Below are positions 36,035 to 39,582 of a stretch of DNA of 40,928 bases, piece after piece; position 1 is the stretch's first letter, and every line of letters starts with the position of its first letter. Position numbers and translations under genes: made by a program. The stretch is from an uncultured Clostridia bacterium (GTDB lineage Bacteria > Bacillota > Clostridia > TANB77 > CAG-508), in assembly GCA_949280815.1 (NCBI GenBank), contig CASDJM010000011.1, positions 1-40,928 of the forward strand. The letters run 5' to 3'. A model generated the notes under the pieces. That model saw only the letters and a list, made by a program, of their open reading frames with translations. It ran no database searches and was not told the origin of the DNA.

Positions 36035-36892
36035 TTATATAATAATCAAATCAGTTTCACTAGTAAATGTATCATTTCCATAAGCATAAATGATATATAA
36101 AGTATTATTCGTCAAATAAAATTGCTTAGAGTTTTCTATTTTATAAATATTACTTGTAACATCTCGTCCATAAATGTTATATCCTAGATTTTTCAAGTCT
36201 TCTACCTTTTTTTGCTCTATCTCAATTTCATTTTTAATTTTATTTTGTAATTCAAATGAATCTATATCTTCTATTTTCAACACTTCTTCTAATGAAATCT
36301 CTTTATTATTTCTTAAATCATAATTATAAGTTTGTATAATTACCCTCTGAGCACTTGAACCTTCTTTCAAATTAGAGCGAATCATTACTGACAAAATATC
36401 ATTTTGCACATTAGCCACATATTCTACTGTATAAATTATATTTTTATTCTGACTTTCCAAAATATTACTTGTCTTTTCTATAAAACCTTCGATTTCTTTA
36501 TTATACTCTTCTACAATTTCATTATCAATATTAATATAAGGTATATGGACTTCTACATCATAGCTATTTAATTTGCTGTTATTTCCTTCAATTCTCGTAT
36601 ACACAAGTGGTTTATCATCTTCTTTCTTTTTATTGCCTTGCCCATCCCCATTCTCTATACGATTCGTAAAAATTTGGTCAAATTCCGATTTCAACACTTC
36701 TATTTGCTCTTCTGTTTTCTTCCCCAACTCACTTTTTGACTCAAAACCAAATAATCTTCCAATATCAATTCTAGCATAAAATTGAACACAAAAGCCGATA
36801 ACGACAGATATAATACATATAACTATAATGATTACATAAATAGCTATTTGTCTTTTATTAAACACTTTTTTCTCTGGTATAACTACGTTCAT
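36035..36892 (-). CDS. Membrane-anchored protein, DUF4163/RsiV-like
   Basis: The 285-residue protein has one N-terminal membrane helix (about 15-37, QIAIYVIIIVICIISVVIGF) and an extracellular part. The segment YDVEVHIPYINIDNEIVEEY NKEIEG resembles the DUF4163 domain found in peptidoglycan deacetylases and anti-sigma factors, followed by a DUF3298-like half (ISLEEVLKIEDIDSFELQNK). I infer a cell-envelope role only; no catalytic residues are visible. It is monocistronic and convergent with htrA. Confidence 0.55.
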   Translation of the reverse strand: MNVVIPEKKVFNKRQIAIYVIIIVICIISVVIGFCVQFYARIDIGRLFGFESKSELGKKTEEQIEVLKSEFDQIFTNRIENGDGQGNKKKEDDKPLVYTRIEGNNSKLNSYDVEVHIPYINIDNEIVEEYNKEIEGFIEKTSNILESQNKNIIYTVEYVANVQNDILSVMIRSNLKEGSSAQRVIIQTYNYDLRNNKEISLEEVLKIEDIDSFELQNKIKNEIEIEQKKVEDLKNLGYNIYGRDVTSNIYKIENSKQFYLTNNTLYIIYAYGNDTFTSETDLIII

Positions 36893-36982
36893 TGCAATCT
36901 ATCCCTCTTCTTTCATTTCTCTATTTCATTATAACATTGTTCTAAAATTTTGCCAAGAGGAACAGACATTTTTGGCAATTTC

Positions 36983-37115
36983 GTCCCCACTGGTTCCGGG
37001 ATTAAATGGGGACACTTTAGACTTAAGTATATTTTAAATTAAAAAATAGAATAAACTTGTTGGAAAAAATCAATAAGCTAAATTGTCCCCATTTAATCCC
37101 GGAACCAGTGGGGAC
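36983..37115. repeat. Inverted REP pair (REPIN-like) upstream of clpE
   Basis: Two identical arms of 32 bases (36983-37014 and 37084-37115) face each other across 69 bases. Each arm is itself closed by GTCCCCA at one side and TGGGGAC at the other, so it can also form its own small hairpin. This double palindrome is the architecture of REP doublets mobilized by Y1/RAYT transposases. No such transposase is in the window. It lies between divergent genes. Confidence 0.75.
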
Positions 37116-37141
37116 AATCAAGAAAAATATCTTTATAATTA

Positions 37142-37170
37142 TTGACTATTTCGCATTTTTAAGGTATGAT
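37142..37170 (+). promoter_or_regulatory. Promoter of clpE
   Basis: TTGACT (37142-37147), 17 bases, TATGAT (37165-37170). It begins 27 bases after the REP pair, so the repeat sits directly upstream of the promoter. I see no clear CtsR operator. Confidence 0.7.
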
Positions 37171-37212
37171 ATTATAGATTAAATTTAAATAGAAATGAGG
37201 AATTAAAAAAGT

Positions 37213-39582
37213 ATGTTATGTTCAGAATGTAATAAAAATCCAGCTATCCTTTTTTATAAAAAAATAGAAAACGGAAAAGAATCCATGGAAGGTTATTGTT
37301 ATGACTGTGCTAAGAAAAAAGGAATTAACCCAAATGAAGTATTAGCAAATCAAAATGATATCCTATCCAATGATAAAATAAATTTGTCAGACATGACAAA
37401 GCAGTTTGAAAGTATCTTTAAAGATTTAGCTGAAAATATCAATTTAGAAGATATCGAAAATATAGAAGGTGCTATTACCTTTGAAAACACAGACTCTAAT
37501 AGTGACTCTGATGAGAATGCTTCCAAAATAGCAGGTGCTGCTATTCCACTTGGTTCCCTATTCTCTAATATGTTTAATGGACAAAATAGTAAAGAAAAAG
37601 AAGAACAAGGTGAACCAATTAGTGGCAGAAAAAAAGTAAAAATAGAAAAAAAGAAAAACACAAAACAAAATAAAAAGAAAAAATTTCTAGACACTTATGG
37701 AACGAATTTGACAAGTAAAGCAAAAAACAATGAACTTGATATTATCATTGGTCGAGACAAAGAAATTCAAAGAATTGTTCAAATCCTAAATAGACGTTCT
37801 AAAAACAATCCTTGTTTAATTGGAGAACCTGGTGTTGGTAAAACTGCAATTAGCCAAGGTTTAGCAATAAAAATTGCAAATCAAAATGTTCCTGCTAAAC
37901 TTTTAAACAAAGAAGTTTATTTATTAGATATGACCGCTGTTATTGCTGGAACCCAATTTAGAGGACAATTTGAATCCAGAATGAAAGGTATTATTGATGA
38001 ATGTAAAGAATATGGAAATATCATTCTAGTCATTGATGAAATCCATAATATTATTGGTGCTGGTGATGGTGAACACTCTATGAATGCTGCTAATATTTTA
38101 AAACCTGCTTTATCTAATGGAGAAATTCAATTAATTGGTACCACTACCCTAAAAGAATATAGAAAATACATTGAAAAAGACTCTGCCCTAGAAAGAAGAT
38201 TTCAACAAGTATTGGTAGAAGAGCCAAATATCGATGATTCGATTGGTATTTTGGAAGGGATTAAAAAATATTATGAAGAATATCACAAAGTAAAAATATC
38301 TTCTGATGTCATTCGTCAAGCTGTTATTATGTCTGAAAAATATATACATGATCGATTTTTACCAGACAAAGCAATTGACATTTTAGATGAAGCTTGTTCT
38401 AGAATCAACTTAGAAAACAAAGACTTATATAAATTAGAAATGCTAAAACAAGAACTTTCCCATGTACAATCCGAAAAAGAAGAAGTCATTGCAGCTGACT
38501 CAACAGAAGATTATCAAAGAGCTGCTGATTTAAAAACTCGTGAATGTCAATTAATTGAGCAACTTGATCAATTAAATAGCAAAATGAAATTAAAACAAAT
38601 TACCATTCAAGACATTGCTAATGTAATAGAGAGTTGGACAAAAATACCAGTAAAAAAAATAACAGAAGCTGAAACACAAAAACTATTAAATTTAGAAACC
38701 AATCTTCATAAAAGAATTATTGGACAAGAAGAAGCTGTTAGTAGTGTAGCAAGAGCCATTCGAAGAAATCGTGCTGGTCTACAAAGTACAAAAAGACCAC
38801 CTTCTTTCATCTTTGTTGGTCCAACTGGTGTAGGAAAAACGGAACTTGCCAAATCTCTTGCTTACGAAATGTTCGGAAGTGAAGATGCCATTATTAGAGT
38901 TGACATGTCTGAATACATGGAAAGTCATTCTACTTCTAAATTAATTGGTGCCCCTCCTGGATATGTTGGCTATGATGATGCTGGTCAACTAACAGATAAA
39001 GTAAAAAGAAAGCCTTATTCCATCATTTTATTAGATGAGATTGAAAAAGCACATCCTGATGTATTTAATGTTCTGCTTCAAGTATTAGATGATGGAAAAT
39101 TAACTGACAGTCAAGGTAATTCTGTTAGTTTCGCAAATACCATTATCATTATGACTTCTAATGCTGGTTCTAACTTGAATAACAATTCTATTGGATTTGG
39201 TGGGCAAACCATTAGCAAAAATAAAATTATAGACAGCTTAAAAGACATATTTCGCCCTGAATTTTTAAATAGAGTTGATGAAATTGTAGCATTTGATAGT
39301 TTAACCAAAGAGCAATTAATGCAAATCGTTGATTTAATGTTAAAAAATACAATAACTGCTTTAAAAGAAAAAGACATTCAAATTGAAATCAGTAAATCAG
39401 CAAAAAACTTCATTTTAGAAAAAGGTACTGACACTAAATTTGGTGCAAGACCTTTAAGAAGAGCCATTCAAAGATACATTGATGATGAACTTTCTGAAAT
39501 GATTTTACGTAGTGAACTTTTAGATGGAAATACTGTAGTTGTCAATTTAAAAAATAATCAATTAGATTTTAAAATAAAATAG
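37213..39582 (+). CDS. clpE: Clp ATPase with N-terminal zinc finger (ClpE type)
   Basis: A hexameric unfoldase feeding ClpP. The 789-residue protein has a zinc finger with C3/C6 and C29/C32 instead of Clp_N repeats, which is the ClpE pattern; then a low-complexity, lysine-rich linker (about 125-160); AAA-1 with GEPGVGKT (204-211) and ILVIDEIH; a UVR-like coiled segment (about 430-455); and AAA-2 with GPTGVGKT (536-543) and [10 protein letters not shown]. The SIGFGG tripeptide loop near 655 is the ClpP-binding type. It is 9 bases before pgsA and forms an operon with it. Confidence 0.92.

Follow-up and report, generated by a model that had tools for sequence, protein, structure and literature searches.

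A REPIN-like repeat doublet between divergent promoters in an uncultured Clostridia bacterium and its candidate RAYT transposase

A perfect inverted pair of short palindromic repeats separates the promoters of the divergent genes orf285 and clpE in an uncultured Clostridia bacterium, and it is very probably a REPIN-like element that was mobilised by a RAYT transposase and landed at this site in a common ancestor with two related genomes, G097 and G101. As we picture it, the doublet would be a piece of non-autonomous mobile DNA made of two REP units in inverted orientation, on whose single-stranded hairpins a Y1 (HUH) tyrosine transposase encoded elsewhere would act, recognising, cutting and rejoining them. 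The acting enzyme would be the RAYT that lies between dnaB and tilS on another contig, C67, with the same unit at its flanks. Landing would have taken place between the two promoters in the ancestor of the species, G097 and G101 with neither promoter broken, and the doublet would since have been kept intact in two of these three species, those retaining the RAYT.

The doublet was examined in a stretch of 40,928 nt (contig CASDJM010000011.1), referred to below as the window. Each of its arms is a 31-nt unit, here termed REP-A, and the two units are identical and face each other (Table 1). Sequence comparison bears out the original prediction of identical, facing 32-base arms, each with a GTCCCCA/TGGGGAC stem: the first 32 nt agree between the arms (GTCCCC...GGGGACA), the repeat unit proper being 31 nt, and the arms can be extended to 38 nt (36983-37020 and 37078-37115) at 97% complementarity. 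Each unit can form a weak hairpin of its own, with a 7-bp stem, and the 133-nt stretch as a whole is predicted to fold as a single strand at -46.3 kcal/mol (z -15.2), which none of 200 shuffles equalled. TGGGGAC occurs five times in the window, where 0.71 would be expected, a number of occurrences reached in 0 of 100 shuffles, and four of the five occurrences are stems of the doublet. An Rfam scan of the window returned one tRNA and nothing else.

Table 1. Positions of the doublet and of neighbouring features in the window
Feature	Position	Strand	Remark
orf285, 285 aa, divergent from clpE	36035..36892	-	
orf285 promoter, sigma-70-type: TTGGCA, 17 nt, TATAAT (11/12)	36928..36956	-	consensus match only
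REP-B palindrome TTGCCAA-N15-TTGGCAA, a REP type other than REP-A	36950..36978	+	
REP-A left arm, stem GTCCCCA/TGGGGAC, 17-nt loop	36983..37013	+	
AT-rich spacer of the doublet, 71 nt	37014..37084	n/a	
REP-A right arm, identical to left	37085..37115	-	
clpE promoter: TTGACT, 17 nt, TATGAT (10/12)	37142..37170	+	consensus match
clpE, Clp/Hsp100 ATPase with N-terminal McsA-like stretch	37213..39582	+	

REP-A forms a dispersed and mostly extragenic family. A BLAST search with the doublet region against its own genome (2.12 Mb, 126 contigs) gave 108 hits on both strands, and an exact-stem pattern recovered 25 units genome-wide (reversed control, 0). An ungapped sliding comparison over 36 stretches (35 from the own genome and the window) counted at least 59 copies with no more than 7 of 31 mismatches, which is a lower bound (reversed control, 0). 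By a count made on an earlier list of 59 copies (fuzzy pattern, indels allowed) against open-ended ORFs rather than gene calls, 49 of the 59 lie outside any ORF of at least 100 aa. The family is strictly ordered: of the 21 cases in which neighbouring copies lie no more than 400 bp apart, 17 are facing pairs, four share a strand and none points outward. Identical arms are present in eight of the 17 facing pairs against 1.6 expected, and 0 of 20,000 partner shuffles reached eight; two of the pairs, both on contig C6, have common flanking sequence and may not be independent. Units in facing pairs carry 1.47 mismatches to the consensus on average, relative to 2.6 for other copies.

Spacers are far less uniform, ranging from 9 to 266 nt, with few alike and most unrelated. 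Bases 29-45 of the doublet's spacer form a 17-nt core that recurs in the spacer of a doublet on contig C20, and this, together with the matching arms, speaks for movement of a doublet as one unit; given the variable lengths and the few alike spacers, such movement is indicated only weakly. The idea that the spacers arose by deletion from the RAYT gene and its surroundings was considered and rejected, as the matches apart from REP units were short and AT-rich. On contigs C5 (L037, about 507-751) and C7 (L038, about 582-612), REP-A abuts another inverted-repeat element, whose ends resemble AGCAATGCTGTCAACTTA and which may represent a distinct MITE family.

A sample of 97 genomes from the genus was scanned for exact-stem units: the own genome has 25, G010 has 31, G068 has 27 and G024 has 8, and each of the rest has two or fewer, with some counts including unrelated palindromes. 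Named genomes with the REP-A pattern, among the matches listed, are uncultured Clostridium sp. MAGs and Clostridia bacterium ABMPRH_46_3. A literature search of limited coverage found no description of the repeat in Clostridia or Firmicutes. The original interpretation as a REP doublet, for which counting genome copies and looking for a RAYT-type gene flanked by the same REP had been proposed as checks, is supported by this multi-copy distribution, by the strict facing orientation and by the gene described next.

The own genome encodes three Y1_Tnp genes. The one on C67, P0001 (251 aa), has dnaB and tilS as its neighbours. Two REP-A units lie at one of its flanks and a single unit, in inverted orientation, at the other, and this Y1 RAYT gene therefore carries the REP of the doublet at both ends. 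P0001 matches the NCBIfam RAYT model NF047646 with an E-value of 1.9e-18 at 66.7 bits, under the cut-off of 80; the best solved-structure match of a 10-sequence RAYT profile is TnpArep (4er8, E 7.8e-4), and phmmer of P0001 alone against the PDB returned nothing. All 10 RAYTs in the alignment have H60, H62, Y120 and N124, and we take H60 and H62 to be the HUH motif and Y120 to be the single catalytic Tyr of P0001. Residue roles in HUH/Tyr transposases are also treated in PMC6006769. Judged from its sequence, the C67 protein belongs to the RAYT/TnpAREP type rather than to the IS200 type. An AlphaFold2 model built from three RAYT sequences was poor (pLDDT 50.9), with confident C-terminal helices at residues about 170-245, and this helical part, as modelled, is compatible with an HTH tail. 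A Foldseek search with the model gave no match at E <= 0.001, and no conclusion on the fold is drawn from it; Pfam returned no HTH domain for P0001 and a weak HTH_23/HTH_28 match for P0002 (E 0.07). The other two RAYT-like genes of the genome (L009 and L010, on C9 and C12) have direct flanking palindromes, TGGCGAGTTTGGGACAGGCACAAACTCGCCA and TGTGACAAGAGGGTCGTCCCTTTTTGTCACA.

The closest relatives of P0001 are found in G010 (70%) and G068 (68%); both are flanked by a REP-A unit, and these are also the two other sampled genomes with at least 25 exact-stem units. REP-A units with no close P0001 relative are seen in G024 (77% complete) and, as a point against the proposed pairing, in the incomplete genomes G105 (three exact units, 10 within three mismatches) and G102 (one exact unit, 15 within three mismatches). 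In four species (L027:3973-4043 on the own C67, L182, L144 and L159), REP-A units are also read in phase within the first part of the tilS ORF that adjoins the RAYT, adding peptides such as PEPVGTS..NPGTSGD.

The gene keeps its location in nearly all genomes tested. A RAYT was found between dnaB and tilS at 17 of 18 loci, corresponding to 15 of 16 distinct genomes (two genomes are represented twice, judged by equal coordinates), with G051 as the exception; the encoded proteins share 44-79% identity, and in G101 fragments only are left. Such constancy is the behaviour of a domesticated RAYT, for which a fixed place is described in PMC8049555, and is unlike that of an IS element. It bears on the suggestion that an ordinary insertion sequence of the DDE or IS200 kind gave rise to the doublet as its MITE, in place of a REP doublet served by a RAYT. 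Inverted ends and a non-coding middle would suit a MITE, and the RAYT gene, with oppositely oriented units on its two sides, is IS-like in build, but the only flanking transposase found, in a search that covered Y1_Tnp genes, is a Y1 gene, and the RAYTs of this lineage stay in place as IS elements do not; a MITE origin is very unlikely. The dnaB-tilS RAYT is broken in G101 (L261, middle lost), G104 (L257) and G098 (L256), through a missing middle, stops or a split over two pieces, and REP-A units remain in these genomes.

At its own site, the doublet occupies the space between the divergent orf285 and clpE promoters, upstream of both predicted starts, with both promoters intact. The clpE product has library matches to the ClpB/ClpA class and to McsA, the name clpE being that of the original prediction, and orf285 has no match in Pfam or NCBIfam. 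Synteny of the two genes is retained in all nine MAGs tested, and the clpE promoter is conserved in aligned congeners. Between the right arm and the start of the clpE -35 (37142), 26 bases were counted, so that the predicted distance of 27 bases was right to one base. The position also bears on whether the doublet acts as an insulator or bidirectional terminator blocking read-through between orf285 and clpE. Hairpins can be formed by either arm alone and by the two together, and PMC6006769 reports that REPs can have a part in termination. A terminator scan of 36850-37300 found none, however; the doublet's position upstream of both predicted starts means that neither gene's transcript should cross it, and relatives do without it. 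We consider a terminator function extremely unlikely.

The same intergenic stretch has been a landing place for other repeats. REP-B lies next to the doublet on the orf285 side, and a looser version of its pattern, TTGCCA-N12-22-TGGCAA, is found at 20 genome sites, including 36950-36978 (control, 0). REP-B stands beside REP-A in the window, on C8 and on C16, the only three composites seen. It overlaps the -35 of orf285, and its stem supplies the TTGGCA box. By eye, REP-B is whole in G101, its left half survives along with TTGGCA in G097, G106, G105 and G098, and the -35-like strings of G107, G099 and G104 are different ones. It is tempting to suggest from these alignments that an old REP-B may have been taken over as part of the orf285 promoter. 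Because G100 bears yet another REP type in the stretch, the gap between orf285 and clpE has been hit more than once. Elsewhere in the window, a third REP-like pair, facing, is located at 45-98 and 136-189 (TTTGGGGACGGAG..AAAAAATCAT) and resembles the RAYT flanks of L119 and L120. REP-B, the orf285 promoter and this third pair go beyond the original prediction.

Comparison of the site among relatives dates the insertion. REP-A is absent from 29 of 29 other congeneric clpE upstream regions (two of these span less than 300 nt). In the nine MAGs with the orf285-clpE arrangement, three of which recur in the genome set from which the 29 regions were taken (by equal coordinates), both arms are present in G097, degenerate arms in G101 and none in the other seven. 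The arms of G097 have 0 and 1 mismatch, and the spacer, which is homologous to that of the window, is longer and partly in inverted orientation. G101 has a degenerate left arm (five mismatches) and traces only of the right, and both genes persist. The outer junctions match in the window, in G097 and, as far as readable, in G101, so that one insertion in a common ancestor is the simplest reading; and since the doublet is shared with G097 and, as a ruin, with G101, the insertion predates the split of these species. Recent mobilization, which had been suggested from the perfect identity of the arms, is therefore half right: an insertion did occur, but before the split from G097 and G101, and the arms have been kept since. 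In the gap of G097 (L233), a CAGACTGTA-like motif is seen in a further insertion nested within the doublet's spacer.

The arms have been preserved to a degree that the surroundings have not. A single difference is found among the 62 arm positions when window and G097 are compared, whereas the flanks are 9-14% divergent and predict 6-9 arm differences (binomial 0.02 to 0.001). Local selection would account for this preservation, as would upkeep through the RAYT, and a perfect doublet at an insertion that is not new leaves room for the former. Accordingly, a local regulatory dyad was weighed, in which the arms bind a regulator of clpE, orf285 or both, or act as a cruciform switch between the promoters. 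The placement of the doublet exactly between two divergent promoters would suit such a dyad, as would its unspoiled arms, but REP-A is present at dozens of other places, the site lacks it in all 29 congeneric upstream regions and in seven of the nine MAGs, and in G101 the doublet has decayed while clpE and orf285 both persist. A single-copy sequence conserved in all relatives had been named as the outcome that would favour a local regulator; the multi-copy element found here, absent upstream of clpE in most relatives, argues against one, and we regard it as unlikely. The effect on clpE expression or supercoiling raised in the original prediction may exist but is not required by any result obtained here.

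Upkeep through the RAYT, as the other explanation of the perfect arms, was approached by relating unspoiled units (no mismatch) to those with three or fewer mismatches. The ratio is 55/255 in five genomes with an intact RAYT orthologue, 4/105 in three with a broken RAYT and 4/46 in four without one (rank test of five versus six genomes, p 0.026, with G107 and its one unit excluded). These counts are biased, as the pattern derives from the own consensus, the consensus of G098 starts with T, and the genomes are related. The pattern fits upkeep by the RAYT, as a hint only.

Hairpins recur at the RAYT flanks examined in the genus. When the flanks of 30 RAYT loci (from 81 genomes with a match) were compared with no use of palindromicity, a flank repeat scoring at least 20 was present at 25, C67 included, nearly always inverted (null maxima 11-20). 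The remaining five (L100, L114, L117, L119 and L120) score below 20, and hairpin units lie near all of them nonetheless. Units could be aligned for 24 of 32 loci, with the own C9 and C12 genes, L097 (orientation) and five loci lacking a clear repeat excluded. They share a 7-bp stem that is 91% paired, against 26-50% when the partner is slid, and double changes in the stem occupy 31 cells versus 6.2 in shuffles, a clear covariation of the hairpin. The loop reads GGTTCC in six loci at least 52% identical to P0001 and GGGAC/GGGTC in the other 24; REP-A itself keeps the loop GGTTCCGGG, and other RAYT flanks carry GGGGACG. Stems vary even among the six P0001-like loci (GTCCCCA, GTTGCCA, TGTGTCA). 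We tentatively suggest, as a possibility that falls somewhat short of even, that the RAYT has been kept at dnaB-tilS since before the sampled species split while its hairpins turn over, with the core of the loop kept by clade (GGTTCCGGG in one, GGGGACG-like in the rest), the stem rewritten by paired changes, and doublet populations following the new stem.

Like the REPINs and RAYTs of Pseudomonas fluorescens and E. coli (PMC3116915, PMC8049555), REP-A occurs in inverted pairs with a variable spacer, mostly intergenic, its facing-pair arms are nearer the consensus, and there is a RAYT in a fixed place flanked by its own REP. REP-A differs from REPINs in the missing GTAG/GTGG tag, in its Clostridia host and in very uneven spacers: GTAG/GTGG was found within 6 nt either side of the hairpin in 0 of 59 copies. 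Nor does REP-A show the feature of the CGTC-tagged REP superfamily, as base -1 is C in 6 of 59 copies and GTC lies within the stem. The doublet shows the REPIN-type features that could be tested, and is neither a GTAG REP nor a CGTC REP.

On sequence grounds, it appears closest to the terminal inverted repeats (TIRs) of TIRYT transposases (Di Nocera et al. 2013, PMC3733652), which are thought to equal RAYT group 1 or TnpAY1 subclass 2.1 (PMC6006769). TIRYTs likewise have a RAYT-like gene bounded on either side by inverted repeats, and no GTAG REPs, and some TIR families are, like REP-A, self-complementary, found as dimers and moderately abundant. A GGGGAC string is also present, and the predicted C-terminal helices of the RAYT would be compatible with the C-terminal HTH of TIRYTs (Bac_DnaA_C, HTH_23 or HTH_28). 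Nonetheless, the TIR consensus GGGGWSAS given in PMC3733652 is matched by just 5 of 59 REP-A copies, so that the likeness is one without the published motif. For subclass 2.1, PMC6006769 reports no REP-like sequences nearby, whereas the flanking repeats seen here are clear hairpins. As in the BIMEs (bacterial interspersed mosaic elements) of the same source, different REP types lie adjacent, but here in only three composites with no regular alternation. In kind, the doublet looks like an element already known, though its type has been poorly described.

Taken alone, the doublet is an ordinary mobile repeat ahead of clpE. The wider family is a natural experiment on how RAYTs read hairpins, with the same gene in the same place, differing stems and constant loops, and it offers cases for comparing RAYT loss with repeat decay. 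It also bears on the question, raised in PMC6006769, of whether subclass 2.1 RAYTs have REP-like partners. If hairpins do turn over as tentatively proposed, the loop would be the letter code that is recognised and the stem mainly a shape, in contrast to the GTAG-guide view, and the "TIRs" of group 1 RAYTs would be true REPs.
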